Source of the DNA: Pseudobacter ginsenosidimutans
GTDB taxonomy: Bacteria; Bacteroidota; Bacteroidia; Chitinophagales; Chitinophagaceae
Direction of reading: 5' to 3'
Assembly (NCBI RefSeq): GCF_007970185.1
Contig: NZ_CP042431.1
Span: forward strand, 3,410,001-3,474,000
DNA length: 64,000 nt
Shown here: one piece after another, positions 27,312 to 55,132 of the stretch
How the letters are laid out: the number at the start of each line of letters is the position of its first letter
Numbering within the stretch: the first letter of the stretch is position 1
Notes under the pieces: model-generated
Told to the model about the DNA's origin: nothing
The model's input: the letters and a program-made list of their open reading frames with translations, nothing else
The model's database searches: none
Translations under genes and position numbers: made by a program

Positions 27312-27468
27312 GGCCGGGGAGGGATATGGCAGGGTGGGCTGAGAAAACAAACCAACGCGGGAGGATGTTTTTTTGAGCTGTGGATTGGTTTGATGGGACT
27401 GCAGTAAATCTTTTGAGCTTCTTCGCTTATGTTTTCAAGGCCCTTCCTGCCATATCCCTTCCCCGGCC
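27312..27468 (+). repeat. Covarying-arm hairpin element, copy A
   Basis: 157 bp closed by inverted arms 27312-27333 and 27446-27468, which are complementary over 22 bp with one extra base (core GGGATATGGCAGG). Inside are the shared strands: AACAAACCAACGCGGGAGGA (27345-27364), a T run then GAGCTGTGG (27374-27382), and CTTCTTCGCTTATGTTTTC (27418-27436). It begins 7 nt after a terminator and faces copy B across 341 bp. The arm sequence is unrelated to that of the other copies. Confidence 0.8.
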
Positions 27469-27809
27469 CGGGCACAATGAGGGGGCTACATAAATATCCC
27501 ACAGTTTTGATCTTCCTGTTCATAATGCTGCCCCAATGTTTCCTGCTTCTTTTAACCAGTAATTGTTTTCTATTTTTCTCTTTCTCTTCTTTTGCATTTT
27601 TTCCTGCTCAAATCATACAATGAAAAATCAACGCATTCTAAATCGCATAAAATAAAAGAATCTAACCCTTCAACTCAAGCAGATTTGAATCAGTATTGAA
27701 ACCAGAACCTTTACCTGTAAACCTGCTATTCATCTTGCTCTTCGAAGTTTTCCCCATCCTCTTCCCCAATTGTTAGGATTGCATTAACCTGGCCTTAGCA
27801 GGGTGTACT
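27469..27809. other. Non-coding spacer between element copies A and B
   Basis: 341 bp with a pyrimidine-rich stretch (about 27535-27610) and no convincing gene. A 64-codon frame at 27429-27623 begins inside copy A and is only a hydrophobic reading of the T/C-rich tract. It contains the left arm (27770-27788) of a perfect 19-bp inverted repeat that surrounds copy B. Confidence 0.6.
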
Positions 27810-28007
27810 GGGGCGCAAAGGTGAAATGTACTGGCGGCCTTGAAAACATAAGCGAAGAAGTCCGGTTTAGCAGTACAGCCAATCAAGCCAACCCACAGCC
27901 CAATAATCCCGCAAATGCGTTGGTTTGTTTTCCAGCCGCCCGTTCATATCCCTTTGCGCCCCCTTCAACCCCAACAATAATCCCCCCTGTTAATGCAATC
28001 CTAACAA
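27770..28007. repeat. Perfect 19-bp inverted repeat enclosing copy B
   Basis: TTGTTAGGATTGCATTAAC at 27770-27788 is the exact reverse complement of 27989-28007. Copy B sits between the arms (27810-27962). No such outer repeat was seen around the other copies. Confidence 0.8.
27810..27962 (-). repeat. Covarying-arm hairpin element, copy B
   Basis: 153 bp, opposite in orientation to copy A. Its closing arm is 12 bp perfect (GGGGCGCAAAGG at 27810-27821 with 27951-27962), and then a second GGCGG/CCGCC pairing. Shared strands on the minus strand: AACAAACCAACGC (27917-27929) and CTTCTTCGCTTATGTTTTC (27842-27860). Its GGGA-GGA purine box is less conserved than in A, C, D and E. Unlike the other copies it lies upstream of a plus-strand gene and not at the end of a gene on its own strand. 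Confidence 0.75.
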
Positions 28008-28060
28008 CCCCACCACTTTCCTCTTAAAGTCTTATTTTGCTGCATATAAGGCAGGAATAC

Positions 28061-29992
28061 ATGAGGATATGCTTTTTGATTATGATCATTTGTTGTACCG
28101 GGATCCTGCCGGGCGGCATGGTTGCATCTCTTTATGCCCAGTCGGGAAGGGAGAAAGCTCCCAAAAAGGCCGTCGATACCTCGATCAAGGCTGTGAAGGT
28201 AAAAAGGTCCGATTCGCTGCCGCCGAAGCCGGGAATCGATAGTTTCATCCTCAAAAGAAAGGGGCTGCTGGGTAAGCTGGCGCGTAACCTTCTCCGTGAT
28301 ACCCTGCGTGAAAATATTGCTGCTCTCACACCAATCAGGAATGACCTGGTGTTCAGCATTTACGATAAGCGGGTGATCCGCAGCGTTACGTTAAAAGGAC
28401 TTGACTTCGGTACTGCCATTACTGATACCAACAAAGTGTACAAGAGCCGGCTCACCAGGCTGGCCAATGGCTTCCACCATAAGACGAGAGGGTATGTGAT
28501 CCGCAATAACCTTTTCTTCCATCCCGGCGACAGGGTGGACCCTTACCTGCTGGCAGATAATGAAAGGCACCTGCGTGACCAAACCTATCTGCAGGATGCC
28601 CGGATCATCATTGAGCCGGCAGAGAATAGTTACGATTCAGTGGATGTGATCGTGCTGACGAAAGATGTATTGAGTATCGGTGGCTCCCTGCATTTGCGGA
28701 ATATGAAAAGCTTCGATGTAAGCGCCAGGGAGGATAATCTCGGCGGATGGGGCGACCGCCTGCTGGGCTCAGTTCTTTATGATACACGCCGAGTGGACAG
28801 GGTTGGCTATGGTATGGAATTCATCAAAAGGAATATCGCAGGTTCTTTTATTGACGGATATGTGGGGTACAAGAATTTTGCAGACGGATTGAACAGCGGG
28901 AGGGATGAAGAAACCACATTCTACACAAAATTCATCCGGCCTCTCGTTAACCAGTATACGAAATTTACATACGCAGCAGAACTGGCCTGGCATGAAACAG
29001 AGAACCAGTATATTCCTGATTCTATCTACCAAAAAGGATTCGCTTACAAATACTACAACTACGATGCCTGGATGGGATGGAATACAGGCGCCTTCAAACT
29101 GGTGAAGGAGAAGAACCAGGACGGCCGTTTGCGGACCATCCTCGGTCTGCGCCTGATGAAGAAAAGATTCGAAATGATCCCTGACTCTTTCAAAGTTCAT
29201 TACGATGCCCAGTTTGCGGATATGTATGGCGTGCTGGGGTCTTTGTCCATCTTCGGGCAAAACTTCTATAAGACCCGCTATATCTACGGTTTCGGCAGAT
29301 CGGAGGATCTTCCGGAAGGAATGGATGTAACAGCCACGGCAGGCTGGACCAAAAAGAATGGTGTAGAAAGGCCCTACATGGGACTGGATGTGAGCCGCAA
29401 TTATTTTACGGAAAGGGAAAGCTACCTGAATTTCACTTTCCGCGCCGGTGGATTCTGGAATAAGAATACACTGCAGGATGTGGACATCCTCGCCAACATA
29501 GATTTTTTCAGCCGGCTACGCTCCATGGGCCCAAGATGGAAACAGCGTACATTCATTAACGTTGGTATCACCGGGCAGATCAATAAAGAGTTGAATGAGG
29601 ATCTCTGGCTGGAAAGTAATTTCGGTATCCGTGAGCTGTACAATGGCCGCAATATCGGTGGCGATATGCGGGCAACACTGAAAGGGGAATCTGTGTTCTT
29701 CAGTCCCTGGACCTTTGTCAATTTCCGCTTCGCGCCATTTGCATTCGCCAACTTCACTTTAATGACGCCGCCATACGAAAGTATCAAACAGAGCGATCTG
29801 TACCAGAGTATCGGGGCGGGTTTGAGAGCCAGGAACGAAAGTCTGATCTTCGGAACACTGGAACTGAAAGCGCATTATTTCCCCCGCGCCAATTACTATG
29901 GGGCACACTGGCGTGTAGACTTCAATACCAATATCAAATTCAAATACAATACACAGATCATCAAGCGACCTGAGATCATCGTTGCGAATTGA
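28061..29992 (+). CDS. Omp85-like outer-membrane protein with POTRA-like domain
   Basis: About 643 residues from the ATG at 28061, preceded by AAGGCAGGAA. The frame extends to a TTG at 28037, but the signal peptide (hydrophobic core to LYAQS) supports the later start. Residues about 95-210 resemble a POTRA domain (YDKRVIRSVTLKGLDFG and RNNLFFHPGDRVDPYLLADNERHLRD). The remainder is beta-rich with alternating aromatic residues and a terminal strand FNTNIKFKYNTQI, consistent with an outer-membrane barrel. Possibly a protein or lipid translocation or assembly factor; the substrate is unknown. Paired elements A/B lie just upstream. Confidence 0.7.
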   Translation: MRICFLIMIICCTGILPGGMVASLYAQSGREKAPKKAVDTSIKAVKVKRSDSLPPKPGIDSFILKRKGLLGKLARNLLRDTLRENIAALTPIRNDLVFSIYDKRVIRSVTLKGLDFGTAITDTNKVYKSRLTRLANGFHHKTRGYVIRNNLFFHPGDRVDPYLLADNERHLRDQTYLQDARIIIEPAENSYDSVDVIVLTKDVLSIGGSLHLRNMKSFDVSAREDNLGGWGDRLLGSVLYDTRRVDRVGYGMEFIKRNIAGSFIDGYVGYKNFADGLNSGRDEETTFYTKFIRPLVNQYTKFTYAAELAWHETENQYIPDSIYQKGFAYKYYNYDAWMGWNTGAFKLVKEKNQDGRLRTILGLRLMKKRFEMIPDSFKVHYDAQFADMYGVLGSLSIFGQNFYKTRYIYGFGRSEDLPEGMDVTATAGWTKKNGVERPYMGLDVSRNYFTERESYLNFTFRAGGFWNKNTLQDVDILANIDFFSRLRSMGPRWKQRTFINVGITGQINKELNEDLWLESNFGIRELYNGRNIGGDMRATLKGESVFFSPWTFVNFRFAPFAFANFTLMTPPYESIKQSDLYQSIGAGLRARNESLIFGTLELKAHYFPRANYYGAHWRVDFNTNIKFKYNTQIIKRPEIIVAN

Positions 29993-30019
29993 CAGCCTTA
30001 AATAGTGTAGTGTAATATT

Positions 30020-30757
30020 CTATCCATTCATCAGTTTTTCCTGTAAATACAAAGCGTTCTTGATGGCGTGCCCCTTTGCCGTATTGTTCAGGTAAAGGTA
30101 AGCTTCGCGTACCTGCCCATCGGCCCTGATGGTTTCGCTCACTTCGTCAAGGAACGCTGTGGAGTATTCGCTTTTGTACAGAATGGGTACACCATGAAAG
30201 CGATAATACACAAGTGGTCCGTTGATGACTGGCGTATCCGGAAGCCGGTGGTGGCTCACGCCGCAAAACACTACTTTCTGAGCCGCCATCATCTGTATCA
30301 CGTCTTCCCGCCACCAGCTGATGTCCCGGAATTCGAGTACATTGGTCACTTCCTGGTCCAACTGCGCCAGTATCTCCTCCAGCAGGTAAGGGGAGTAGAC
30401 AGTTTTGGGGTGAAACTGGAACAAAACGGGGCCCAGCTTATCTTTCAAACCTTCTTTCGCAACATTGTAGAAGTCGTCCAGCAAGGGGCGTACATCTTTG
30501 AATTGCTTGAAATGTGTGATAAGCCTTGGGGCTTTGATGGAAAAATTAAAACCTGGAGGGCTTTTGTCGTACCAGCTTTCCAGGGGCGCTACCTGTGGAA
30601 AGCGGTAAAATGTGTAGTTGAGTTCCAGTGTGTTGAACCTGGTGCAATAGTAGTCAAACCATTTGCGCTGTGGTGTTTCCGGAGGGTAGAAAAGTTCTTT
30701 CCACTCGCGGTAGTGAAAGCCGGAACAGCCGATCCGCCATTGAATTATAGTTGCCAT
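30020..30757 (-). CDS. DUF72 (YecE-like) protein
   Basis: 245 residues beginning WRIGCSGFHYREWKELFYP, the usual DUF72 N-terminus, followed by YTFYRFP and FSIKAPRLITH. The family is a TIM-barrel-like fold in many bacteria with no firm biochemical role. C-terminal YLYLNNTAKGHAIKNA is also conserved. It stands alone on the minus strand, convergent with the Omp85-like gene. Confidence 0.88.
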   Translation of the reverse strand: MATIIQWRIGCSGFHYREWKELFYPPETPQRKWFDYYCTRFNTLELNYTFYRFPQVAPLESWYDKSPPGFNFSIKAPRLITHFKQFKDVRPLLDDFYNVAKEGLKDKLGPVLFQFHPKTVYSPYLLEEILAQLDQEVTNVLEFRDISWWREDVIQMMAAQKVVFCGVSHHRLPDTPVINGPLVYYRFHGVPILYKSEYSTAFLDEVSETIRADGQVREAYLYLNNTAKGHAIKNALYLQEKLMNG

Positions 30758-30856
30758 AACCGTAGGATTCTTCTAAAGATTGTGCCACCCTCCTATACAT
30801 AAACACCTCTTAAAGATACATATCAATATAATCAAAAACTTTCATTGGCTTGGAAT

Positions 30857-30885
30857 AAAAAAGAAGGCAGTGTGGAAACACCGCC
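30857..30885 (-). terminator. Intrinsic terminator downstream of the tRNA-like gene (minus strand)
   Basis: GGCGGTGT/ACACTGCC stem (30878-30885 with 30866-30873, one wobble) followed on the minus strand by TTCTTTTTT. It lies about 140 nt beyond the tRNA-like gene and probably ends that transcript. Confidence 0.65.
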
Positions 30886-31021
30886 TCTCATCAACGATTG
30901 CTTGCCATATGAAAAAAAACACTGAGTTGAATCCGGGATGGCTATGGCAGCCACAATTTTTTTGAAGGGCGAAGTAGAAACATCGCCCTGGGGCTCAATG
31001 ATATTGAACCGATGCAAATAG

Positions 31022-31092
31022 CAGTTACGGGTGGACTCGAACCACCGTAAAAGGTCTTGCGTACCTCCGCCTCGCCTCTCGGCCACGTAACT
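31022..31092 (-). tRNA. tRNA-Cys(GCA)-like gene with C33, aberrant
   Basis: A cloverleaf can be drawn on the minus strand. The acceptor stem AGTTACG/CGTAACT is 7/7, the D stem GCC/GGC, the anticodon stem GAGGT/ACCTT (one wobble), a 4-nt variable loop, and the T arm GGTGG-TTCGAGT-CCACC is 5/5. The anticodon loop is ACGCAAG, giving GCA (31058-31060), but position 33 is C where U is nearly universal. Position 1 is A and the discriminator would be G, both unlike ordinary tRNA-Cys. No CCA is encoded. It starts 17 nt after the stop of the hydroxylase gene at 31110. Intact pairing argues against simple decay. Confidence 0.6.
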
Positions 31093-31109
31093 CGTATCAG
31101 TTGTAAGAA

Positions 31110-32330
31110 CTATTGTCTGCGCTGGTAAACCCAGTAGAGATAATGGTCGCGTATCGTTTCAAAATACCTGATCAGCAGGAGGGTCACCAGCAACATCAAC
31201 ACGCTCAGCCAGCCTGCAGGGTATGCTATCACGAGGCCGATTGCCACTGTGAGTAAGCGAAGAAATTCCAGGTAGAACACCCATTTCTTCTGTTCCATGA
31301 TGGCGCCGCAATTGATCAGGGTGAGGATCAATCCCAGCGAGATCAATGCCTGCTGCGTCAGCGGCAGGTAATGTTCAAACAGGATGAATACAAAGAGCAA
31401 TGCAATACTGAGTGCGATCTGCCAGATCACATACCTGTTCAATCGCTGTTCAACCGCCTGTGGCAAATGAAAGATGTTGAATTTCTTTTCTACTGCTTCG
31501 CGGGCTGCAGGATCCACCAGGTCTGGCTTTCCGAAGATCAGCTTCAGTTTGTTAATGAATCCGCCGGTGCGCCGGACAGCATACCAGAGCTCCGCAAAAA
31601 AATGCACATGCTGCCAGAGGAAACTATAACTGTTCAATGGCTTTGTGAGCCCGTATTTGATCTCCACATTGTCTTCCTCTTTCTGGAAGGTACCGAAGAG
31701 CTTATCCCAGATGATGAACACATCTCCATAATTCCTGTCGAGATATTGTTCATTGCTCGCATGATGCACCCTGTGATGCGATGGTGTTACCAGTATATAT
31801 TCCAGGATGCCCAGTTTGCCGATAAGCCGGGTATGGATGAAAAACGGGTAAAGCCCATGTACCAGTAAGAGGCTGGTGATCATCATTGCCGGGAATCCCA
31901 GCAGTGGCAGTATTGCCCAGAAGCCGGTTCTGATAAAGGCCTGGAATACTGTGATGCGCGCACTCACCGTATAATTGAAATCCTCACTCTGGTGATGCAC
32001 TACATGTGCAGCCCAGAATACATTCACTTCATGCGCCAGCCGGTGATACCAGTACCAGCAAAAATCAGTACAAAGGAGCAGCAGGATCCAGGTGAGAACG
32101 CCTGCTCTTATTTCGAACAATCCAAAATTCCTCTGCAGGTAATCATAGAAGAAAAAGAAGGCGCCGGTTACCCACACATCCAGCAATCTTTCGGCAATGC
32201 CTATACTAACATTGGCTACGGAATGATGGAGGTTGAAATAGGGCAGCTTCTTCTTTCTCGCTACCAGAAATTCAATGGTCATGAATAAGACAAAGAACGG
32301 TACAGCAAATGCCAATAAGTTGAACTTCAT
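31110..32330 (-). CDS. Sterol desaturase / fatty acid hydroxylase superfamily protein (paralog 3)
   Basis: 406 residues, about 100 longer than the two paralogs at 5992-7853. The catalytic His clusters are all present: YHRLAHE, HVVHHQSEDFN and PSHHRVHHASN. The extra C-terminal region (about 290-406) holds three or four further membrane helices. A membrane lipid hydroxylase role follows from the family; the substrate is unknown. It is directly upstream of the tRNA-like gene on the same strand, and the two may share a transcript. Confidence 0.88.
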   Translation of the reverse strand: MKFNLLAFAVPFFVLFMTIEFLVARKKKLPYFNLHHSVANVSIGIAERLLDVWVTGAFFFFYDYLQRNFGLFEIRAGVLTWILLLLCTDFCWYWYHRLAHEVNVFWAAHVVHHQSEDFNYTVSARITVFQAFIRTGFWAILPLLGFPAMMITSLLLVHGLYPFFIHTRLIGKLGILEYILVTPSHHRVHHASNEQYLDRNYGDVFIIWDKLFGTFQKEEDNVEIKYGLTKPLNSYSFLWQHVHFFAELWYAVRRTGGFINKLKLIFGKPDLVDPAAREAVEKKFNIFHLPQAVEQRLNRYVIWQIALSIALLFVFILFEHYLPLTQQALISLGLILTLINCGAIMEQKKWVFYLEFLRLLTVAIGLVIAYPAGWLSVLMLLVTLLLIRYFETIRDHYLYWVYQRRQ

Positions 32331-32387
32331 ACAATGGCTATTCGTTGGTTAATGCATCGGAAACGATTCGGCAGAACTCATAAAAGA

Positions 32388-32714
32388 TTATTGTCCTTTG
32401 GGCTCCAGTTTGATCACCTGTTTTTGTGAAGCATCTGTTGTGCGGACTTTCTTTTTCTTGTACTGGGGATGTTCTATCACCAGCGTTACAGGCAGCTGCT
32501 GCCAGGTGGTGATGGAGAACCTTCCATTCTTATCCGATAAACTCTCTTCCTCTCCGGAAACAATGTACACATAGGCATTCTCTATGCGCTGGCCGGTTTC
32601 TGTGTGTATGATCTGTCCACTGATCTCAGCGGGCTTGCCCGGGTAAATCTCCGTTGTGCTGAAGATCAGCGCCGGAACGGCTACCAGCCATTGATATGCA
32701 GGTGATGTTTTCAT
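32388..32714 (-). CDS. Small secreted protein with carboxypeptidase-regulatory-like domain
   Basis: About 108 residues from the ATG at 32714 (MKTSPAYQWLVAVPALIFS), which gives a signal-like N-terminus; the frame opens earlier at 32750. The rest reads AEISGQIIHTETGQRIENAYVYI...SDKNGRFSITTWQQLPVTLVIEHPQYKKKKV. This is the beta-sandwich repeat found at the N-terminus of TonB-dependent receptors and in small stand-alone proteins. Function unknown. It is divergent from the DUF4382 lipoprotein across a dyad at 32765-32793. Confidence 0.65.
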   Translation of the reverse strand: MKTSPAYQWLVAVPALIFSTTEIYPGKPAEISGQIIHTETGQRIENAYVYIVSGEEESLSDKNGRFSITTWQQLPVTLVIEHPQYKKKKVRTTDASQKQVIKLEPKGQ

Positions 32715-32764
32715 GCAGAGACATTGAGTTGCTTGTGAATGACAGCACAATATTACAGTGAAAT

Positions 32765-32793
32765 TATTAGTCTACCAAATTAGTGGACTAATA
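32765..32793. promoter_or_regulatory. Candidate operator dyad
   Basis: Inverted arms TATTAGTC (32765-32772) and GACTAATA (32786-32793) with a 13-nt centre, in the region between two divergent genes. The symmetry suggests a dimeric repressor site. No regulator gene is adjacent. Confidence 0.35.
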
Positions 32794-32911
32794 TTTCGCA
32801 TTCGTTTTTTTCACTATTTCATCATTTTTAGTTTTCCACCAAAACCGGATCAGGCACAGGATTTGTTTTTTATGGTTGGAACTTCATTCAACCACATAAA
32901 AAAAGTCAGGT

Positions 32912-33814: not shown

Positions 33815-33928
33815 ATATTCTTCTTTTTGATCTCAGCTCAATGATCGGGAGGCTGCCGCAGAGGCAGCCTCTTTGATTTTTACATGCACATACTGATCAG
33901 TATCATAACCAGACCTCCTGTTATTTTG

Positions 33929-33936: not shown

Positions 33937-33952
33937 CCGCACATTCTATTCT

Positions 33953-34309: not shown

Positions 34310-34328
34310 TCATGCAATCAGCAATGGG

Positions 34329-34968: not shown

Positions 34969-35964
34969 ATGAAAAGATCTACCTGGCTGCCGGCAGCCAC
35001 CGCCCTTACCTTTATCTCAGCTTTCGTGTTCAATGGATGTAAACCTGGTACCCGTGGCGTAGCCGCCGAAGTTCAGGCCGCTCCCTTTACCAAACATGAT
35101 ACTGATACAGCTCAACCCCCAGTAGCCCCTGCAGCAGCCGTTCTGGATACTGCCCTCTATGACGCCAAACTCAAATACATGGCCAATGGAGATACCTCCG
35201 GCAGATGGCCTGTTAAAACAGATTACCCGCTCCCCGGCGCTGTTCTTCCCTTCAAACGTGTACTCGCTTTTTATGGCAACCTGTACTCCACCAAAATGGG
35301 TATCCTGGGTGAACTGCCGGAAAAAGATATGCTCGCTAAATTGCAGGAAGAAGTAAAGAACTGGCATGCCGCCGACACCAGCATGGAAGTAGTGCCCGCA
35401 TTGCACTACATCGCAGTAACGGCCCAGGGAAGCGCAGGTGCCGATGGCAAATACCGCCTCCGTATGCCACACAAGGAGATCGATAAGATCCTCGTAATGG
35501 CCGAAAAAATCAATGCACTCGTGTTCATAGATATCCAGGTTGGCCTCAGCAACCTTCAGGCTGAAGTGCCACAGCTGGAAAAATACCTGAAAATGCCGCA
35601 TGTGCATCTCGGTATCGATCCTGAGTTTTCCATGAAAACAGGCAAGAAGCCCGGCTCTGTGATCGGATCATTCGATGCCGCGGATATCAACTACACAACA
35701 GAATATCTCGCCAAACTCGTGAAGGAAAACAACCTGCCTCCAAAAATGCTGGTAGTTCACCGCTTCACAAGACCGATGGTGACCAACTATAAAAATATCA
35801 AGCTGCGTCCTGAGACCCAGATCATCATGGACATGGACGGGTGGGGAGCGCAGGCGCGTAAGATCAGCACCTACCGCTCTTTCCTGTATCCGGAGCCTGT
35901 GCAGTATACTGGGTTCAAGCTTTTCTATAAAAATGATTTTAGAGAGAAGGGAGCAGGATCATGA
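34969..35964 (+). CDS. Lipoprotein with a hydrolase-like barrel, C-terminus probably frameshifted
   Basis: 331 residues with a lipoprotein signal (VFNGC, Cys at about 24). The body resembles an uncharacterised family of secreted TIM-barrel-like proteins: FYGNLYSTKMGILGE, HVHLGIDPEFSM and MLVVHRFTRPMV. The frame ends abruptly at FREKGAGS. Reading one base further back, the sequence continues SRIMTPAEVLKLKPQPVYIQYQ to a stop at 36018-36020, which looks like the genuine C-terminus. One extra G in the GGG at 35949-35951 would join the frames. Enzymatic activity unknown. Confidence 0.75.
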   Translation: MKRSTWLPAATALTFISAFVFNGCKPGTRGVAAEVQAAPFTKHDTDTAQPPVAPAAAVLDTALYDAKLKYMANGDTSGRWPVKTDYPLPGAVLPFKRVLAFYGNLYSTKMGILGELPEKDMLAKLQEEVKNWHAADTSMEVVPALHYIAVTAQGSAGADGKYRLRMPHKEIDKILVMAEKINALVFIDIQVGLSNLQAEVPQLEKYLKMPHVHLGIDPEFSMKTGKKPGSVIGSFDAADINYTTEYLAKLVKENNLPPKMLVVHRFTRPMVTNYKNIKLRPETQIIMDMDGWGAQARKISTYRSFLYPEPVQYTGFKLFYKNDFREKGAGS

Positions 35965-36040
35965 CCCCGGCGGAGGTTTTGAAATTGAAGCCGCAGCCGG
36001 TTTATATTCAATACCAGTAAGAGGTTTAGAATTTTTTGTG

Positions 36041-36073
36041 GAGCCGCTCAGGGATGGGCGGCTCTTCTTTTTT
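36041..36073 (+). terminator. Intrinsic terminator before element copy C
   Basis: GAGCCGC (36041-36047) pairs with GCGGCTC (36058-36064), followed by TTCTTTTTT. It lies 21 nt after the restored stop of the lipoprotein gene, and its T run overlaps the left arm of copy C. Confidence 0.8.
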
Positions 36074-36225
36074 CAAAGCGGGGGATATGGATTGTGAGCT
36101 GGGAAACAAACCAGCGCGGGAGGATTTTTTTTGAGCTGTGGTTGGTTGGGGTGGGCTATTGTATCAAGCCGGACTTCTTCGCTTATGTTTCCAGGGCGCG
36201 TAATCCATATTCCCCCGCTTTGAAA
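36071..36225 (+). repeat. Covarying-arm hairpin element, copy C
   Basis: 155 bp. The outer arms (36071-36093 and 36202-36225) pair over 23 bp with a single bulge (core GGGGGATATGGATT). Shared internal strands: AACAAACCAGCGCGGGAGGA (36105-36124), TTTTTTTTGAGCTGTGG, and CTTCTTCGCTTATGTTTCC. A small internal GGCT/AGCC hairpin can be drawn at 36154-36170. It faces copy D across 548 bp. Confidence 0.82.
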
Positions 36226-36773
36226 TCACCTTGAAGGTGCATCATAATGAGGGTAGCTCCATGATGAAATTCACTCACCATTATTGGTTGAAACAAAAAG
36301 GCTGTGCTTCAATGTTCAACACTGACAGGGTTAATGATTCTGCATCGCTTCACTGAATCATTTTAATGAAATGATGAACCACTGGGTTCTGCAAGAGCGG
36401 CAGGTATAGTGAAAGCCGCTCCGCTGCTGATCTTTAGCGCACTGCGTGAGAAGGGGAGAGGGAAAAAAGCGGCAGGATGCTGATGAATGGCCGGCAATGA
36501 ATAGAAAGACGAAGTAATCAGCAGGAATTATTGAATGCTGATCAAAACATAAAATCTAATCCGATAATTCAATAGTTGCATTCAGAAAGCACATTGAAAA
36601 ACTATGGATCATTGCTTTGCTAGTTTAGCAAGAGAGAATAGAAGCAATGCGATCACTGAAAGAAATCACATTAGTTTCCTGCAATTCGCCAATCAAAAGT
36701 GGAATTGTGTAATAAAATAATTCAGAAAAAAATGCAGCAGTCTGAATCAAACTGCTGCACATTCCGGGGATCG
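36226..36773. other. Non-coding spacer between element copies C and D
   Basis: 548 bp without a convincing reading frame. It contains a minus-strand terminator (36726-36759). Its first bases (CATAATGAGGG) weakly resemble the start of the A-B spacer (CACAATGAGGG). No similarity to the E-F spacer was seen by eye. Confidence 0.55.
36726..36759 (-). terminator. Intrinsic terminator for the M61 peptidase transcript
   Basis: TGCAGCAGT (36733-36741) pairs with ACTGCTGCA (36751-36759); on the minus strand it is followed by a T run (36726-36732). It lies beyond copy D, which would therefore be in the 3' untranslated part of the peptidase mRNA. Confidence 0.75.
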
Positions 36774-36926
36774 GGCCGGTGAAGGGGTATGGGAAACGGG
36801 CCTTGGAAACATAAGCGAAGAAGCATGGCTAAGCTCAATAGCCCAACCCAACCAACCACAGCTCAAAAAAAATCCTCCCGCGCCGGTCTGTTTCCCAGAC
36901 CGCTTTCTCATACCCCCTCAACGGCC
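36774..36926 (-). repeat. Covarying-arm hairpin element, copy D
   Basis: 153 bp in opposite orientation to copy C. Outer arms 36774-36799 and 36900-36926 pair over about 25 bp with wobbles and one bulge (core GGGGTATG). Minus-strand internal strands: AACAGACCGGCGCGGGAGGA, TTTTTTTTGAGCTGTGG and CTTCTTCGCTTATGTTTCC. It starts 14 nt after the peptidase stop codon. Confidence 0.82.
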
Positions 36927-36940
36927 TACCCCTCAACAGC

Positions 36941-38755
36941 CTACCGGCTGCCCAGTAATTTTTTTCTGAATTCAACCGCTGCTGCATTTGCTTTTTCAGC
37001 AGGCACCACAATGAATGCCGGATTTTCGGCCAGCACAATTTTTGTACTGGTCTTGCTGCCGCGATGATCATATTCGATGTCGAGCCTGTCACCAGGTTTG
37101 TGGGATTTCAAGAGCTCGGTGAGATCGGATTGCTTGCGAAGCGGCTTACCATTCAATGAGAGGATCTGATCATCCACATCGAGACCAGCATTATAGAGCG
37201 GCGTTCCGTTCACAGTATTGGAAGCGATAGTGAGCGAGTTTGCGCCATCCCTCCATTGTACATTTCCAACCCAGGCTTTTCCTTCGTTGGACCTTTTCAG
37301 CAGGAGCCCGGCTTTTTCGAGAAGCGGAGCGTAATCAAGCGGTTCATGTCCTTTGATGTATTTGGAAAAGAAATCGGAAGCGAATTGTTTGTTGCCCGTT
37401 AGCTGGGCCAGTACATCCTGCAAACCGTCTACATTGTAGGGGATCTCTGTTTTACCGTATTTCTTCCACACGGCAGTCATGTAGTTGTCGAGCGTAAGAT
37501 TGTTGAACCGGCTGCGCAATTCCAGGTCAAGGGCCAGCGCAATGGCGGCTCCATACGGATAGTAGGAAGTGTACATGTTCACGTAATTGCTTTTGTCGAT
37601 TGCAACGCCGGCATCTACGAAAACCGCATGGCGGCTCACTTCCACGGGAGAGAAGCGCTTCGCGCCCTGCGTATTTACTTTGGTGTTGATGAGACTGCCC
37701 ATTACGCGGAGATAATCTTCTTCGCTCATGCAGCCTGCACGTTCGGTGAGCAGGTCGCCGTAGTATTGTGTGAAGCCTTCAGCAAACCAGAGCTCATTGC
37801 TCATATTGCTTTTCTCGAAATTGAAAGGCTCCAGCGTTTTCGGGCGGATGCGCTCTACATTCCAGCAGTGAAAGAATTCATGTGCGAATACATCCAGCAA
37901 TTCATTGTTGCCATCGAAATTGATGGGAATACTGATCACCGTGGAATTGCGATGCTCCATGCCATCGCCTTTCACCCAGGGATTGATGCTGGCAATGAAT
38001 GTGTAGGTGCCATGATCGAAATCGGGCAGTTCTCCGTATACTGCCATCGATTGTTCGGTGATGCGTTTCACTTTATTGGTGAATGCAGTGAGCAGGCTGT
38101 CTGAGCTGCTGCCTTCGAAAGCAAAACGGATCCTGTATGATTTACCGGAAGGATTGGTGAGACTCCATTCCTTCCAGGTGAGGGAGCCGATCTTTGTTGG
38201 ACTGTCCATGAAATACTGAAGGCCTGGTGCTGTGAAAGCCGTGGAATCGTTGGTGGGCTTGAGTTGTGTGGCAATGCTCCATTGTTTGCCTTCAGGGATA
38301 TTGAATTTTACAGAGATGGGTGTTTTATCATATCCCTTGATCCACATGAAAGCTGCAGGCATATTGAAATGAATGCTGGTGGCATCGATCCCTGCATAAG
38401 TGCCGTCAGGATGATTGGCATAGAGCGTATACTCGAGGCGGATCTGTCCGTCTGTATGCTGAACTTCGTACACATCTCCGTCTGTTCGGGTAATGGTGAG
38501 TGGTTTGTTATTCTTGCCGAAGGCCTTCACGTCGTACACATTCTTTCCGAATTCGTGGGTGGCATAACGGCCGGGTGAAGAGCGGCTCATGCGGAAGACA
38601 GCCGTCTTTTGTTTGGTGCCGATGCCGGTTACGTTGAGACTGATCTGTGCCTCGTGGTGCGTGATATTGGGGAAGGAAACTGAATAGCTGATCTGTTGTG
38701 CCTGCAGTGAAGCGATCACCAGCAGGAAAAAGAACAAGGATAGAGATTTCTTCAT
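36941..38755 (-). CDS. M61 family metallopeptidase with C-terminal PDZ domain, secreted
   Basis: 604 residues with a signal peptide (cleavage near SLQAQ). N-terminal beta domain, then a gluzincin catalytic domain with HEFFH (292-296) followed by WNVERIRPKTL and the third ligand Glu in WFAEGFTQYY. A PDZ domain spans about 490-590 (LYNAGLDVDDQILSLNGKPLRKQSDL). The family includes glycyl aminopeptidases. Likely periplasmic. Element copy D directly follows its stop. Confidence 0.93.
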   Translation of the reverse strand: MKKSLSLFFFLLVIASLQAQQISYSVSFPNITHHEAQISLNVTGIGTKQKTAVFRMSRSSPGRYATHEFGKNVYDVKAFGKNNKPLTITRTDGDVYEVQHTDGQIRLEYTLYANHPDGTYAGIDATSIHFNMPAAFMWIKGYDKTPISVKFNIPEGKQWSIATQLKPTNDSTAFTAPGLQYFMDSPTKIGSLTWKEWSLTNPSGKSYRIRFAFEGSSSDSLLTAFTNKVKRITEQSMAVYGELPDFDHGTYTFIASINPWVKGDGMEHRNSTVISIPINFDGNNELLDVFAHEFFHCWNVERIRPKTLEPFNFEKSNMSNELWFAEGFTQYYGDLLTERAGCMSEEDYLRVMGSLINTKVNTQGAKRFSPVEVSRHAVFVDAGVAIDKSNYVNMYTSYYPYGAAIALALDLELRSRFNNLTLDNYMTAVWKKYGKTEIPYNVDGLQDVLAQLTGNKQFASDFFSKYIKGHEPLDYAPLLEKAGLLLKRSNEGKAWVGNVQWRDGANSLTIASNTVNGTPLYNAGLDVDDQILSLNGKPLRKQSDLTELLKSHKPGDRLDIEYDHRGSKTSTKIVLAENPAFIVVPAEKANAAAVEFRKKLLGSR

Positions 38756-48056: not shown

Positions 48057-48066
48057 TTGTGATGGA

Positions 48067-48783: not shown

Positions 48784-48811
48784 AAGTTCCTATTCAGGTG
48801 CTGCTTCAATT

Positions 48812-49579: not shown

Positions 49580-49587
49580 AAATGAAC

Positions 49588-50511
49588 TTAGTTGGCAGTA
49601 ACACCAATCTGGTCCAGGATCTTGTTCAGGTCCTGAATAGAGTAATACTCAATCGAGATCATTCCGTTGCCTTTTTTACTATGATTGAGTTTTACCTTGG
49701 TGCTGAAATGCGAGGCTAAATTATCTTCAATTTTTTTATAGGCCGGTGGGAGATTGGCTTTTACCGAAGATTTAACAGGCTGGTTCCCTTTGTACATTTT
49801 GCGTACCAGCTCTTCAGTCTGGCGTACGGAAAGGCCTTCTTTCTTTATCTCGTTGAAGATGAAAAGCTGTGTTTCCACCGTGTCTACATTGATCAGGGCG
49901 CGTGCATGGCCCATGCTGATCACGCTGGTGCGAACAGCCACCTGGATATCTGGTGGCAGTTTCAGCAGGCGGATATAGTTGGCAACGGTGCTTCTTTCTT
50001 TTCCCATTCTTTCCGCAACCTGCTCCTGTGTATGATTGAGCTCTTCCATCATACGTTTATAGCTCAGCGCAATTTCCATGGCGTTGAGGTCTTCACGTTG
50101 CAGGTTTTCCAGCAGGGCCAGTTCCAGCAGTTCCTGGTCATTGGCCTGGCGGATATAAGCGGGCACATCTTTCAGTCCTGCGATCTTGGAAGCCCTCCAG
50201 CGGCGTTCGCCGGAGATAAGGCGGAACTTTCCGCCGGGCAGTCCGGATACAGTGATGGGCTGCACCAGGTCGTGCAGTTTGATAGAAGCTGCGAGTTCAT
50301 TGAGCGCGGTCTCGTCAAAATCACGGCGGGGTTGTTTGGGGTTGGGCTCGATGTCCGCAACCGGAATCCTTTGCATGGTAGTGACTGCCTCCACAACTGA
50401 TCCTTTCAACTGACCGGTGCCGGTCTTCAAATCTGAGTCAATGCTTTGCAACAGGGAACGGATGCCCTTGCCTAACAATTCCTTGTTATTATCTTTTTTT
50501 TCTTTGCTCAT
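49588..50511 (-). CDS. parB: Chromosome partitioning protein ParB
   Basis: CTP-dependent clamp that loads at parS sites near the origin. 307 residues. ParB/Srx domain with ISGERRWRASKIAGLKDVPAYI (GERRxRA CTP motif) and a central HTH (SYKRMMEELNHTQEQVAERMGKERSTVANYIRLLKLP). A C-terminal dimerisation region follows. It lies 48 bp downstream of parA. No parS-like site (GTTNCACGTGNAAC) was seen in the window. Confidence 0.95.
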   Translation of the reverse strand: MSKEKKDNNKELLGKGIRSLLQSIDSDLKTGTGQLKGSVVEAVTTMQRIPVADIEPNPKQPRRDFDETALNELAASIKLHDLVQPITVSGLPGGKFRLISGERRWRASKIAGLKDVPAYIRQANDQELLELALLENLQREDLNAMEIALSYKRMMEELNHTQEQVAERMGKERSTVANYIRLLKLPPDIQVAVRTSVISMGHARALINVDTVETQLFIFNEIKKEGLSVRQTEELVRKMYKGNQPVKSSVKANLPPAYKKIEDNLASHFSTKVKLNHSKKGNGMISIEYYSIQDLNKILDQIGVTAN

Positions 50512-50559
50512 GAACTGTATGCGTTTACAGATGGTGGTTAGATGTGCTTGGTCCCCGGA

Positions 50560-51360
50560 TTACTCGAGGATCCTTTCTTCCTGCCTGATCTTGGTCATAT
50601 TGTTCTTCTGCAGGATCTCCTTGGCAAGATTGAGGTAGTTGATAGCTCCCTTGCTCTGCCCGTCGTACAGGATCACGGGTTTGCCCACGCTGGGCGCTTC
50701 GCTGATCCTGGTATTGCGGTGGATGATGGTATTGAACACCATTTCATCGAAGTGTTTGCGCACTTCGTTCACCACCTGGTTGCAGAGGCGGAGACGGCCA
50801 TCATACATGGTCATCAGGATACCTTCGATCACCAGGGCGGTGTTCAGACGGCTCTGAACGATCTTGATGGTATTGAGCAGCTTGCCCAAACCTTCCAGGG
50901 CGAAGAATTCCGTTTGCACGGGAACGATCACACTGTCGGCTGCCACCAGGGCATTCACGGTGATCAGGCCCAGTGAAGGGGAACAATCTATGATAATGAA
51001 GTCGTATTCATGTTTCACCGGCTCCAGGATACCCTTGAGCACGCTCTCACGGTTGGGATAGTTGATCATTTCGATCTCGGCGCCTACCAGGTCGATATGA
51101 GAAGGAATCACGTCCAGGTTGGGGATCTCGGATTTCAAAGTCACATCCTTCGCAGCAGTACCATTCACCATGCAATCGTACAGGCTCTGCTGGATATTGT
51201 GCAGGTCAAACCCAACACCGGTGGTGCTGTTCGCCTGCGGATCCGCATCCACCAGCAGTGTTCTGAATTCGAGCACCGCCAGGCTGGCGGCCAGATTGAT
51301 GGCAGAAGTGGTTTTTCCAACTCCCCCTTTTTGATTTGCAACTCCAATTACTCGGGCCAT
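50560..51360 (-). CDS. parA: Chromosome partitioning ATPase ParA (Soj)
   Basis: 266 residues with deviant Walker [19 protein letters not shown] (about 11-28), [18 protein letters not shown] Walker B region and no N-terminal HTH, so the chromosomal Soj type. It acts with ParB in origin segregation. First gene of the operon that continues with parB, DUF5683 and dapB. Confidence 0.95.
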
Positions 51361-51566
51361 TGTAGAGTACCTTATTTAGTAGATCGTAAAATTGTCACCA
51401 ATCGGCAAGACTTCAAAATTTAGTTTTGCCCACCGGAAACCCAGTTATATTTGTGCCGGCAGGCCGGCGGGACGGCAAAAATACACTTCAGCCCCAACAA
51501 TCGCAACCAAAACAGGCTTCGACTGTTAAATAAAGTTCTTAACAAAGGCAAAAAAAATCTAATCCA

Positions 51567-52814
51567 ATGCGCAATTCAGGTTTCTGGTGGGTCATCATCG
51601 GTATCATGATCGTCCTCGATATTTATGTATACCAGGCCATCAAAGTAGTGCTTCCGGAGCATTCCCCTAAAACCCGGCTCATCATTATCGTACTGTACTG
51701 GCTCGTTTCCATTACCGTCACCGGTATCCTGGTAATGATGCCCTTCATCAATTTCGATAACTGGCCACGGGGTCTCCGCACCTATCTTTTTGCCACCACC
51801 GTTGGATTATTCTTTGCCAAACTCATCGTTTCTATCTTCCTTGCCCTGGACGATATCCGCCGCGGCGGGATGTGGGTGATCGGGAAACTTTTCTCCAATC
51901 CTTCTGTTGAGATCACACAGGCATCCGATGGCATCACCCGTTCCGCCTTCCTCAGCTGGCTGGGCCTCGCTGCAGGCAGCACCCTCTTCGGAACCCTGCT
52001 TTACGGTTTCTCCAATAAGTACAAATACCATATCAACCGAATTCCGCTCAGCTTCTCCAATCTGCCAAATGCATTCAAAGGTTTGAAGATCGTGCATATT
52101 TCGGATATCCATTCTGGTAGTTTCATGGACAAGAAAGCGGTTATGCATGGCATTGAAAAGATCATGAAAGAGAAGCCTGATCTTATCCTCTTCACCGGCG
52201 ACCTGGTGAATGACCGCGCCTCTGAAATGACGGATTATATGGATGTGTTCAACCAGCTCAAAGCACCTATGGGGGTTTATTCAACACTCGGTAACCACGA
52301 TTACGGGGATTATGTACGATGGGAATCCCAGGAAGCCAAACATGCCAACCTGGAAAGATTGAAAGCAGTACACGGTGAGCTCGGATGGCGATTGCTCATG
52401 AACGAACATATAATATTCGAAAGAGGAGAAGATAAGATCGCCCTGCTCGGAATCGAGAACTGGAGCGCCAAAGGCAATTTCCCTAAATATGGAAAACTCA
52501 CAGAAGCACATCCCGGCACAGAAGGTCTTCCCTTCAAAATTCTCATGAGCCACGATCCCAGCCACTGGGATGCTGAAGTGGTGCCCAAATACAAGGACAT
52601 CGACCTCATGCTCTCCGGCCATACACACGGAATGCAGTTCGGCGTTGATCTGCCCGGATTCAAATGGAGCCCTGTACAATATATGTACAAACAATGGGCA
52701 GGCTTATATGAAAACGAATCACAAAAACTCTATGTCAACCGCGGTTACGGATTCATCGGTTATCCTGGTCGTGTTGGCATCCTTCCCGAAATTACCGTGA
52801 TCACTTTGGGGTAG
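51567..52814 (+). CDS. Membrane-anchored metallophosphoesterase
   Basis: 415 residues. Three or four hydrophobic helices in the N-terminal 120-160 residues, then a calcineurin-like phosphoesterase domain with the metal motifs SDIHSG, FTGDLVN, LGNHDYG and GHTHG. Similar to YkuE-type phosphoesterases, some of which act on lipid A precursors; this one's substrate is unknown. The catalytic domain would face one side of the inner membrane. Divergent from parA. Confidence 0.92.
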   Translation: MRNSGFWWVIIGIMIVLDIYVYQAIKVVLPEHSPKTRLIIIVLYWLVSITVTGILVMMPFINFDNWPRGLRTYLFATTVGLFFAKLIVSIFLALDDIRRGGMWVIGKLFSNPSVEITQASDGITRSAFLSWLGLAAGSTLFGTLLYGFSNKYKYHINRIPLSFSNLPNAFKGLKIVHISDIHSGSFMDKKAVMHGIEKIMKEKPDLILFTGDLVNDRASEMTDYMDVFNQLKAPMGVYSTLGNHDYGDYVRWESQEAKHANLERLKAVHGELGWRLLMNEHIIFERGEDKIALLGIENWSAKGNFPKYGKLTEAHPGTEGLPFKILMSHDPSHWDAEVVPKYKDIDLMLSGHTHGMQFGVDLPGFKWSPVQYMYKQWAGLYENESQKLYVNRGYGFIGYPGRVGILPEITVITLG

Positions 52815-52971
52815 GAAAATCCCCAATGTTTCATATACTCTAATTTTCGCATACATAATAATGTGAGGCCGTCAATAGGGGGCAAAGCATGGTTGGTAGT
52901 CTATATTAACATCGGCTTGTATGTTACTGGCATATAAGTTGAAAAATTCTGTATGAACCAAATTACAATGT

Positions 52972-53559
52972 ATGAAAAAGAGAACCCTGTATCTTTTAGC
53001 CCTGGCACTAATATTTAGCTCTGCTTCCTTTGCGCAGGGATTGCACCTCGGTGTAAAAGCCGGCGCCAATATTTTTAAGGTGGATGGAAAAAGTTTTAAA
53101 GAAGAGTACAAATTCGGTTACAATCTCGGAGCCTTTGCTGAAATCAATTTCACTGATAAATTCGGTATCCAGCCGGAAGTGATGTGGAACCAGCTGAATT
53201 ACCGTTCAGGCGAAAATTTCGGAGATGTATTCCCCGGCGGCCAGGATGATGTAAAAGGTAAACTCAATTACCTGAGCATCCCGGTATTGCTGAGCTATTC
53301 ACCTGCCAAAGTGTTGAGCCTTCAGGCCGGTCCGCAATTCGGCATTTTGCTGAACCAGGACAAGAACCTTTTTCAGAATGGAAAAGAAGCATTCAAGAGC
53401 GGTGATTTCTCCCTGCTCGGCGGCGTGCAACTGAATCTCGGCAGCGTTAAGGTTGGTGGACGATATGTTATTGGTCTCTCAGACATCAATGATGTAGACA
53501 ATAAAGAGAAATGGAAAAACCAGGGCTTCCAGTTGTATCTGGGTTTGAGGATCATCTAA
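52972..53559 (+). CDS. Small outer-membrane beta-barrel protein (OMP_b-brl_2 type), copy 1
   Basis: 195 residues with a signal peptide (cleavage near ASFAQG) and repeated amphipathic strands: LHLGVKAGANIFKVDGKSFKEEYKFGYNLGAFAEINFTDKFGIQPEVMW. Ends YLGLRII with a terminal aromatic/hydrophobic strand as in outer-membrane barrels. A close tandem paralog follows at 53671. Role unknown. Confidence 0.88.
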   Translation: MKKRTLYLLALALIFSSASFAQGLHLGVKAGANIFKVDGKSFKEEYKFGYNLGAFAEINFTDKFGIQPEVMWNQLNYRSGENFGDVFPGGQDDVKGKLNYLSIPVLLSYSPAKVLSLQAGPQFGILLNQDKNLFQNGKEAFKSGDFSLLGGVQLNLGSVKVGGRYVIGLSDINDVDNKEKWKNQGFQLYLGLRII

Positions 53560-53670
53560 GCCGCAGCTGTGCGCGATAAACATACAGCGCTTTTTTTCTA
53601 TATGTTCTTTCAATTGGGTAACTTGTATAAGTAATATTATCAATTCGTTTACACCATTAAATCAATATGT

Positions 53671-54258
53671 ATGAAAAAAAGATCGCTGGTATTGCTCACC
53701 GGCTTACTGCTCTTCTCGCTGATCAGTTTTTCACAAAGCCTCCATATCGGGTTCAAGGCAGGTGCAAATATTTTCAAGGTAGACGGACAATCGTTCAAAG
53801 ATGAATTCAAATTCGGTTATCATATCGGAGCTTTTGGTGAGATCTATATCATCGATAAGTTCGGAATTCAACCGGAAGTACTTTTCAGTCAAACGAATTT
53901 CCGCACCGGCACGGATTTCAATAATGTCTATCCCGGAGGGGTAAGCGATGTGAAAGGAAAACTGAATTACCTGAGCATCCCCATTTTATTCAGTTACCGT
54001 CCTATCAACCTGTTTGCTTTCCAGATAGGTCCACAATTCGGCACTTTGCTGAACCAGGACAAGAACCTGGTCAATAATGGAAAAGAAGCATTCAAGAAAG
54101 GAGACTTCTCCCTGCTGGTAGGCGCACAGCTTAACCTGCTCAAGTTCAAGGCAGGCGCAAGGTATGTGATAGGATTGAACGATATTAATGATGTGGGAAC
54201 GAGTAATAAATGGAAGAACCAGGGATTTCAGGTCTATGTGGGAGTGAGGGTGTTGTGA
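53671..54258 (+). CDS. Small outer-membrane beta-barrel protein, tandem paralog
   Basis: 195 residues, the same length and collinear with 52972-53559 (shared GAN-IFKVDG-SFK-E-KFGY and KLNYLSIP, NQDKNL-NGKEAFK), so a recent tandem duplication. Signal peptide present. It is followed by its own terminator (54287) and element copy E. Each copy has its own 110-160 bp upstream region. Confidence 0.88.
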   Translation: MKKRSLVLLTGLLLFSLISFSQSLHIGFKAGANIFKVDGQSFKDEFKFGYHIGAFGEIYIIDKFGIQPEVLFSQTNFRTGTDFNNVYPGGVSDVKGKLNYLSIPILFSYRPINLFAFQIGPQFGTLLNQDKNLVNNGKEAFKKGDFSLLVGAQLNLLKFKAGARYVIGLNDINDVGTSNKWKNQGFQVYVGVRVL

Positions 54259-54286
54259 TGAAATCCATACGTTATTTATAGGGAAG

Positions 54287-54317
54287 ATCCCGGTGGTTTC
54301 GGCTGCCGGGATTTTTT
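54287..54317 (+). terminator. Intrinsic terminator before element copy E
   Basis: ATCCCGG (54287-54293) pairs with CCGGGAT (54306-54312), followed by TTTTTTG. Element copy E begins 10 nt later. Confidence 0.75.
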
Positions 54318-54327
54318 GTTTTTGTGC

Positions 54328-54477
54328 GCTTGCGGGGGGATGCGGGCCAGGGCTGTTGAAACAAACCAACGCGGGAGGAGTTTTTTGAGCTGTGGTTGGA
54401 GAGATGGGGCGGTGGTGCTTTGCCGGACTACTTCGCTTATGTTTCAAAGGCCCGTTGCCCGCATCCCCTCCGCAAGC
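54328..54477 (+). repeat. Covarying-arm hairpin element, copy E
   Basis: 150 bp. Outer arms 54328-54347 and 54457-54477 pair over about 20 bp with one bulge (core GGGGATGCGGGC). Shared internal strands: AACAAACCAACGCGGGAGGA (54360-54379), TTTTTTGAGCTGTGG and CTTCGCTTATGTTTC, preceded by GCCGGACTA. It lies directly after a terminator and faces copy F across 522 bp. Confidence 0.82.
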
Positions 54478-54999
54478 AGCAATCACCAAAACAAAATTTG
54501 AATCCCGGCAATGCCGGATTCATTTGATCGCTGACTTACAACATAAATAACGATGGATTTTGGGTGGTAGAGGATGGGGAAAGCTTCGGAACGCGTAAGT
54601 ATGTACGTTAGTTATTGACGCTACTTTGATTATACTTAACATATTGCAGCACCAGAGATTTTAGTTTCACTCATTACTGTCTCAACACTCATACTGGTAA
54701 GAAAACTGCATTGAAAAAATTATTAAATGCCAATCTGAAAAAGATATATATCCTACTCCTTGGTTATGTGCTTAATTTTTACACCTCTATATTTTCTTTT
54801 ATATCTCTTACCTCTTTTATATCTATGTTTTTATTACTTCTCAAACATCTCGCGCTTTCCTGGAGCATCGTTTTGGTTTAGAGTTCACATTCTTTCTTCT
54901 ACAATAATAGTATGCAACATGAATGCAAATACTAATAAAAGCAGGGTTCCCCTTGCAACTATTACTATTGACTGATGGAGTGGGTGTTCATCGAGCGAC
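54478..54999. other. Non-coding spacer between element copies E and F
   Basis: 522 AT-rich bases with a CCGGC/GCCGG hairpin near 54501-54520 and a pyrimidine-rich tract (about 54770-54850). A 71-codon frame at 54760-54975 is hydrophobic only because of the T-rich tract and lacks a ribosome binding site. I see no gene. Confidence 0.55.
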
Positions 55000-55132
55000 G
55001 GGTTATGAATAATCAGGCCTTGAAATATAAGCGAAGAAGCCTGGCATTATACTACAGCTCCATCTCTCCCATCCAAAGCTCAATAATCATTCTCACGCGG
55101 TGGTATATTTCACAGACTGATTATCATAACCC
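55000..55132 (-). repeat. Covarying-arm hairpin element, copy F (diverged)
   Basis: 133 bp, the shortest copy, opposite to E. Arms 55000-55016 and 55117-55132 pair with one bulge (core GGGTTATGA, then TAATCAG). CTTCTTCGCTTATATTTC is well kept on the minus strand, but the other strand is degraded (AATATACCACCGCGTGAGAA), and it includes the TGA stop and last codons of the DoxX gene at 55093. Confidence 0.7.

Follow-up and report, generated by a model that had tools for sequence, protein, structure and literature searches.

Bacterial MITEs such as the Correia or ERIC elements are short, noncoding inverted-repeat elements that lie between genes. REPINs are extragenic and present in many copies; they consist of inverted doublets that form hairpins and show compensatory changes, with singles as likely remnants (PMC3116915), and they have been stated to persist for long periods (PMC8049555). 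Hairpin stems can also be made, and kept perfect, by template switching during replication, in which local sequence is copied as its reverse complement (PMC8794818). In the foldback inversions of yeast, a resected end folds into a hairpin and so primes the copying of its own flank (PMC7467729).

Here we describe a hairpin family from the soil bacterium Pseudobacter ginsenosidimutans, six copies of which lie in the window analyzed, a 64,000-nt stretch of contig NZ_CP042431.1 (GCF_007970185.1). Like REPINs and BIMEs, the family is extragenic, has a high copy number, and shows compensatory hairpin changes. On balance, we favor the reading that it is a genus-limited, extragenic, REPIN/MITE-like family of DNA hairpins, born by paired fold-back copying and now fixed and conserved.

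Results

Hairpin units form facing pairs

All six copies and the conserved inner strands of the original prediction were recovered at the coordinates given there. They form three facing pairs, in each of which the left member lies on the plus strand and the right member on the minus strand: A (27312 to 27468) with B (27810 to 27962), C (36071 to 36225) with D (36774 to 36926), and E (54328 to 54477) with F (55000 to 55132). The two copies that were folded, A and C, both gave better structures than dinucleotide shuffles (z scores of -7.45 and -5.28, respectively). The conserved core of the unit is nonpalindromic, its ends pair over only about 7 bp, and its loop contains 14% C and 38% G.

The arms of each copy had been described as complementary to each other yet unrelated between copies. 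Complementarity within copies is above chance: in 104 of 111 copies, the 5' and 3' arms score higher against each other than the 95% level of pairings between loci. The arms are specific to each place only beyond a weak common core: five of the six copies contain GGG(A/G/T)TATG, from which only copy E diverges, and G(A/G/T)TATG is found in the 5' arm of 48 of the 111 genome copies.

The source genome (G000) holds at least 113 copies, arranged as 38 pairs and 37 singles; most per-copy tests cover 111 of these (76 pair sides and 35 singles). All 38 pairs are in the plus-minus order, with units of about 150 bp and a median of 380 bp between the two facing members.

The family is confined to one genus in the genomes searched

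Copies were found in four of six genus members and in none of 53 genomes from other genera. A further search of 294 genomes of the bacterial family, made with R2 under strict filters, returned the same four members and one weak match in another genus (E value of 3.3e-4), which was taken as chance. No Rfam 15 family matches the copies at the gathering score, the only hit in the window being a fluoride riboswitch elsewhere; subthreshold matches over A and B are weak and of miRNA type. Nor was any description of the family found in the literature searched, which most subscription papers lay outside. A phage origin was also considered, and two exact patterns gave no matches in viral contigs.

The places are held across species. 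In G004, 58 of 62 fetched loci coincide with element loci of the source genome; in G001, 10 of 20 tested loci share a flank with such a locus, 8 of them both flanks. The core types of the hairpin differ between species. In G005, one place that carries a pair in the source genome is empty, and about 20 bp separate the two stop codons there.

A REPIN/BIME-type element that a Y1 (RAYT) transposase moves in single-stranded form, with the facing pairs as a higher-order arrangement, would account for several of these features. Extragenic location, a copy number of about 100, inverted doublets, singles that may be remnants, and compensatory changes are as reported for REPINs (PMC3116915), and a Y1_Tnp gene is present in the source genome. 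However, Y1_Tnp occurs in every one of the six genus members, even in the two with no detected element; in the source genome it scores 28 bits against a RAYT cutoff of 80, about 10 kb separate the only full-length gene from the nearest copy, and no RAYT was found beside the copies. In addition, the stem consists mainly of place-specific arm, and the pairing of the conserved core ends is short. We regard such an origin as unlikely.

Copies often lie at gene ends

In 77 of 109 cases, the neighboring gene on the outer side points at the copy, with a median distance of 20 nt. By raw counts, 20 of the 38 pairs lie between convergent genes, 2 between divergent genes, and 16 between codirectional genes. 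Because of these last 16, the idea that pairs arise from each gene having its own 3' element was rejected. A run of five or more T residues precedes the hairpin on its outer side in 60 of 111 copies and looks like the end of the neighboring gene's terminator; such a run directly follows the hairpin, on the inner side, in only 20 of 111, which sets the unit apart from an intrinsic terminator.

The pairs might act as bidirectional transcription barriers between genes, with the RNA of both strands mattering. Strict pairing would be expected of such a barrier, because a G-U pair on one strand is an A-C mismatch on the other. The raw numbers of convergent and divergent settings fit this role, as does the base composition of the loop, the complement of which is C-rich and G-poor and presumably resembles a Rho loading site. 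The codirectional pairs and the scarcity of inner T runs count against it, and it leaves the mirrored flanks described below unexplained. We give the barrier a small share of the probability.

Arm pairing is conserved at orthologous places

Over 74 copies compared between G000 and G004, identity is 94% and 91% in the two arms and 93% in the core ends, against 79% in the loop, 77% in the outer flank, and 73% in the spacer. At each of 18 arm positions, counted over the copies whose arm alignment covers that position, Watson-Crick pairs outnumber those in every one of 200 shuffles. Double stem changes at orthologous places restore a Watson-Crick pair in 38 of 47 cases; a second count gave 18 of 21, where 3.5 doubles of any kind were expected. 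Changes at orthologous places are independent of kinship among the copies, and these counts are therefore not those of pairing without covariation beyond phylogeny, the outcome that the original prediction had set against itself. Its wording that every base changes goes too far, since the arms at orthologous places are largely identical and the differences lie mostly between places.

The evidence on wobble pairing is mixed. In the arms of the three genomes counted, G-U pairs do not outnumber A-C mismatches (16 G-U and 28 A-C of 1835 in G000, 14 and 26 of 1628 in G004, and 3 and 5 of 594 in G002). Single changes between G000 and G004 gave 18 G-U and 26 A-C. Against this, single changes between G000 and G002 gave 12 G-U and 6 A-C, and a longer-range pairing count gave 201 G-U and 81 A-C; close to the stem, much of this G-U signal falls on junction positions 0 and 1 (37 G-U). 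Because arm G-U is no commoner than A-C, the hairpin pairing seems to be kept at the DNA level.

The same lack of preference in the arms speaks against a small RNA, for which the original prediction had proposed a check of reads. A structured RNA, either a 3' untranslated region or a small RNA read from the outside in, would explain the strong covariation, the nearby genes that read toward the copies, and the longer-range G-U excess. The arm counts do not fit it, nor do the frequent outer T runs resembling a neighbor's terminator or the absence of an Rfam match, and we consider an RNA gene improbable. That reading had been favored at first and was lowered once the arm G-U and A-C counts proved alike.

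Template-switch mutation could, in principle, form and maintain the palindromes by itself, with no selection, since the process can create and mend hairpin stems (PMC8794818); strict Watson-Crick pairing and double changes of the transversion type agree with this. Mending alone, however, would let the arms drift as pairs, whereas they are conserved far above the spacer, and the conserved core is not palindromic. An origin and upkeep by mutation only is already disfavored and, in our judgment, very improbable.

Host flanks are mirrored inside some pairs

On the inner side of some hairpins lies an inverted copy of the host flank, up to about 250 nt long and including gene ends. A preserved pair has the arrangement L-E-rc(L)-rc(R)-rc(E)-R, where L and R are host flanks and E is the hairpin unit. 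At pair C/D, the flank outside C, the 3' end of the neighboring gene (35849 to 36051, plus strand), has its inverted copy at 36247 to 36446 (minus strand; 149 of 215 aligned positions identical). The flank outside D, the 3' end of an M61 peptidase gene (36936 to 37157, plus strand), corresponds to 36530 to 36745 (minus strand); taken as a whole, this match is weak (142 of 254 aligned, 72 gaps), but it includes a perfect 15-nt piece (36719 to 36733 and 36958 to 36972). At pair E/F, the flank outside E, which follows an outer-membrane-barrel gene and carries its terminator (54261 to 54322, plus strand), is mirrored at 54488 to 54560 (minus strand; 52 of 75 positions identical), and at pair A/B, the flank outside B (27989 to 28007, plus strand) is mirrored at 27770 to 27788 (minus strand; 19 of 19).

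Mirrors exceed the 95, 99, and 99.9% cross-locus control levels in 31, 21, and 11 of 111 copies, respectively; in the other 80, which stay below the 95% level, the inner copy is assumed to have decayed. Above the 99% level, the pair sides show own-side inverted copies in 17 of 76, opposite-side copies in 0 of 76, and direct-orientation copies in 1 of 76. At the 95% level, both sides are mirrored in 3 of 38 pairs and at least one side in 23 of 38. Among singles, 2 of 35 exceed the 99% level; in G001, 2 of 26 copies do so, and none of the 26 reaches 99.9%.

In a tree of locus C, a single clade (0.983) unites the inner copies of three species; it groups (0.997) with the outer sequences of the same three species, apart from G001, G003, and G005. 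This grouping indicates that the mirror at C is a single event, with the outer gene end as its donor. Separate recopying of the interior in each species is unsupported at this locus, the sole one so tested. The original prediction had noticed neither the facing pairs nor the mirrored host DNA nor the absence of a wobble preference.

Discussion

Inverted host flanks between facing hairpins point to an unusual way of DNA insertion. At birth, an intergenic site would have been opened, with an E on each of its two 3' ends; each hairpin would fold back and prime copying of the adjoining flank, and joining of the two ends would give the arrangement L-E-rc(L)-rc(R)-rc(E)-R. Like treatment of both 3' ends would fix the facing orientation. 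The original prediction had put forward two readings, selection on the structure and arms derived from nearby sequence. Each finds partial support, in that the arms are conserved above the spacer with compensatory pairs and the inner flanks of some copies mirror host DNA; many proximal arms nevertheless share the family core.

After birth, the same places are held across species while inner copies decay and the hairpin arms are kept. Selection may act on DNA-level pairing, as a cruciform, a single-stranded DNA hairpin, or through use of both strands, and template-switch copying may help the arms stay perfect. The most likely role would be a protein-recognized or topological boundary at gene ends. 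More tentatively, we suggest a new mode of insertion, in which an opened site receives a conserved hairpin at each of its 3' ends, each end copies up to about 250 nt of its own flank by folding back, the two are joined, and the pair is long kept as a DNA structure recognized by a coevolving factor. Neither a mobilizing enzyme nor an intermediate nor a fresh insertion of the family was found. An origin of the variable loop from a retron or a diversity-generating system was set aside: an RVT_1 reverse transcriptase was found in G002, G003, and G004 but not in G000 or G001, both carriers, and the loop is no more variable than the spacer.

The family would provide a natural record of bacterial fold-back copying, in which many events share one hairpin and the origin of DNA palindromes can be read from sequence. 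It also indicates that strong covariation is no proof of a functional RNA, since Watson-Crick pairing with no wobble preference can persist in the DNA itself. Should a host factor recognize the pairs, they would constitute a new set of gene-end sites spread over the chromosome.

Its relation to known systems is one of partial likeness. The unit is a hairpin in itself, with place-specific arms, and not two inverted REP sequences forming a stem; its copies face each other over several hundred base pairs, with an interior that mirrors host flanks; and, unlike REPINs and BIMEs, the family has no adjacent RAYT that we could find and was seen here within one genus. As in MITEs, there are terminal inverted repeats, the facing hairpins, around a short body, but each end is itself a hairpin and the interior is host derived at preserved places. 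No transposase or target duplication was identified, the one clean empty site, in G005, showing no established direct repeat. No autonomous element or transposon with these hairpin ends was found in the three wide pairs examined, which hold a RibD_C protein, a YycE-like glyoxalase, and an unmatched 226-amino-acid frame. Template-switch hairpins have no shared conserved unit at their apex, whereas this family shares one over about 100 places, in facing pairs. Yeast foldback inversions, as described in the source cited above, are rearrangements in repair mutants; here, two facing events occur per place, each spans at most about 250 nt, and the products are fixed in species.

Hairpin copies form facing pairs

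The original prediction placed a family of six hairpin copies, A to F, in the window, and all six are present as described; B, D, and F, however, lie on the minus strand, so that the six make up three facing pairs (A/B, C/D, and E/F). In the source genome (G000), a single contig of 7.80 Mb, model R1, with 57 copies as input, found at least 113 copies, a lower bound with 150 of 2,038 candidates scored; by position, these form 38 pairs and 37 singles. The plus copy precedes the minus copy in all 38 pairs, across a median gap of 380 bp. A search among relatives had also been proposed: under strict filters, R1 matched four of the six genomes of the genus, G000 included, and gave no copies in 53 genomes of other genera. 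Among named genomes, the exact core pattern was matched in Pseudoflavitalea rhizosphaerae KACC 18655 and Chitinophagaceae MAG BIN25. The element type of G001, another genome of the genus, has diverged, with a different inner stem (e.g., AAATATG/CATATTT); model R2, made from 22 G001 copies, gave 59 matches there (E up to 0.1) and also matched copies in G000, G002, and G004. G003 and G005 had no copies by R1 or R2. Plainly scanning for hairpins where these two genomes are syntenic with part of the window, a small sample, likewise found none.

Arm pairing is kept through compensatory change

Sequence-level analysis covered 111 of the 113 G000 copies, at 73 places. The 5' and 3' arms, the place-specific outer stem strands, paired with each other above the 95% level of cross-locus pairings in 104 of 111 copies. 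Three or four pair types occur at each of 18 arm positions, and the Watson-Crick share (from 83/97 to 105/107 aligned cells) exceeded that of every one of 200 shuffles. Because kinship among copies could mislead, same-place copies were compared across species. Between G000 and G004 (74 copies), identity was 94% in the 5' arm, 93% at the core ends, and 91% in the 3' arm, and the outer flank (77%), loop (79%), and spacer (73%) were less kept, with conservation edges near -25 and +125; between G000 and G002 (27 copies), the arms were 79 and 75% identical and the spacer 64%. With stems set in G000 and carried over by pairwise alignment, which may favor conserved pairs, 21 double changes were counted in 2,167 mapped G000-G004 stem pairs (3.5 expected for independent sides), 18 of them from one Watson-Crick pair to another; in 700 G000-G002 pairs, 38 of 47 double changes from Watson-Crick gave another Watson-Crick pair. 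The arm covariation claimed from the window is thus seen between same-place copies.

A one-strand RNA stem under selection is expected to favor G-U. In the arm (-24 to -7), G-U and A-C numbered 16 and 28 of 1,835 in G000, 14 and 26 of 1,628 in G004, and 3 and 5 of 594 in G002, counts that overlap through orthologous copies common to these genomes. Single changes away from Watson-Crick between G000 and G004 led to G-U in 18 cases and to A-C in 26. Contrary counts came from single changes between G000 and G002 (12 G-U versus 6 A-C) and from a longer stretch including unpaired flank (201 versus 81); near the stem, 37 G-U fell at junction positions 0 and 1. Our tentative reading is that the arms are paired at the DNA level, or in both strands. 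The loop is C-poor (14% C, 38% G), and changes in it tend not to involve C (A/G 297, A/T 191, G/T 182, C/T 70, C/G 27, A/C 22); the two loops of a pair resemble each other slightly more than loops from different places do (medians, 0.685 versus 0.645; P = 0.002, 38 pairs).

Host DNA is mirrored inside some pairs

Farther out than the arms, inverted 9-mer matches close to the diagonal occurred in 9, 13, and 12 of 111 copies at 25 to 50, 50 to 75, and 75 to 100 nt from the core (1.2, 0.7, and 1.4 copies in shuffled pairings), fading to background at about 200 nt. By gapped alignment, the mirror exceeded the 95, 99, and 99.9% cross-locus control levels in 31, 21, and 11 of 111 copies in G000, 22, 13, and 8 of 101 in G004, 10, 6, and 4 of 36 in G002, and 4, 2, and 0 of 26 in G001. 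At the 99% level, the 38 pairs gave own-side inverted matches on 17 of 76 sides, opposite-side inverted matches on none, and direct-orientation matches on one; 2 of 35 singles exceeded this level. At the 95% level, at least one side was mirrored in 23 pairs and both sides in 3.

At locus C, inner 36247-36446 and outer 35849-36051 are identical at 149 of 215 positions; the D mirror (36530-36745) is weaker, and the two mirrors together explain most of the interior of pair C/D. In a tree of locus C, one clade (0.983) unites the inner copies of G000, G004, and G002, and it joins the outer sequences of the same genomes (0.997), apart from G001, G003, and G005. Because the outer piece belongs to the end of a gene conserved in those three genomes, it is placed as the donor, in a single event at this locus. 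At 2413692, where G000 has a whole pair, two G005 gene ends lie about 20 bp apart.

Two side observations concern the C/D locus. For the frame at 34969-36018 (plus strand), the C-terminal end seen in G005, with YIQYQ as its last residues, falls in a different frame in G000, and the long G000 frame therefore stops at 35964; either a change of frame or an error in the sequence would account for this. Where G000 has pair C/D, G005 carries a hairpin of short TTGATAAG-like repeats (about 8880-9110 of stretch L156), which looks like another kind of repeat.

Element places are shared across species

In G004, 58 of 62 fetched loci lie at G000 element places (4 were unmapped; 2 G000 places were outside the fetched set), and make-up was alike in 40 of 42 loci compared. 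In G002, 15 of 21 stretches mapped. Among 20 G001 loci chosen for being visible to R1, 10 have a flank in common with an element place of G000, and for 8 of these both flanks are shared; at the D position of the window, G001 also carries a hairpin, of the G001 type. By this sharing of loci with G004, G002, and G001, the places are mostly old, while the species differ in core type.

A proposed fold-back model and the gene setting

Preserved places read L-E-rc(L)-rc(R)-rc(E)-R (E, hairpin unit; L and R, host flanks; rc, reverse complement), with fixed orientation, stability, and conserved arms. We infer that facing pairs were born by fold-back: where a site was opened, both 3' ends would carry or gain E and fold back, each copying its own strand; like treatment of both ends would leave E plus at the left and minus at the right, matching 38 of 38 pairs. 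A yeast study proposes hairpin-primed fold-back copying after resection (PMC7467729).

By our own gene calls, the genes on either side of the 38 pairs are convergent in 20 cases, co-directional in 16, and divergent in 2; among 109 cases, there were 77 in which the outer gene is read toward its copy, with a median distance of 20 nt. Our best guess is that the pairs may now serve as boundaries at gene ends.

T runs of at least 5 cluster in G000 outer flanks beyond the arms, 64 of them with their ends at -50 to -21 relative to the core, and also occur where the neighboring gene reads away (14 of 32); they could be either element part or target preference. On the inner side, a small CACCTTGAAGGTGCAACAG-like hairpin soon follows the 3' arm in G000 and G001 copies, and a strict GKGCARCA motif occurs in 29 of 111 G000 copies. 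Three wide pairs hold frames between their hairpins, which may be captured genes: RibD_C (L105, 1466-2068), a YycE-like glyoxalase (L104, 1508-1885), and an unmatched 226-aa frame (L103, 1303-1983).

Comparison with known elements

The claim that no described family has this form holds for Rfam, which gave no match for the element, and for the literature searched, which yielded no description of it; across the window, only a fluoride riboswitch (57050-57117, minus strand, 45.1 bits) reaches the gathering score of an Rfam family. The nearest described elements are REPINs, inverted REP doublets that are reported to be extragenic, with common compensatory changes (PMC3116915). Unlike REPINs, the present element has neither a nearby RAYT, the REPIN-associated transposase, nor mutually inverted REP units. 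We place it among extragenic hairpin repeats, as a new variant, and regard the proposed insertion mode as the bolder reading.
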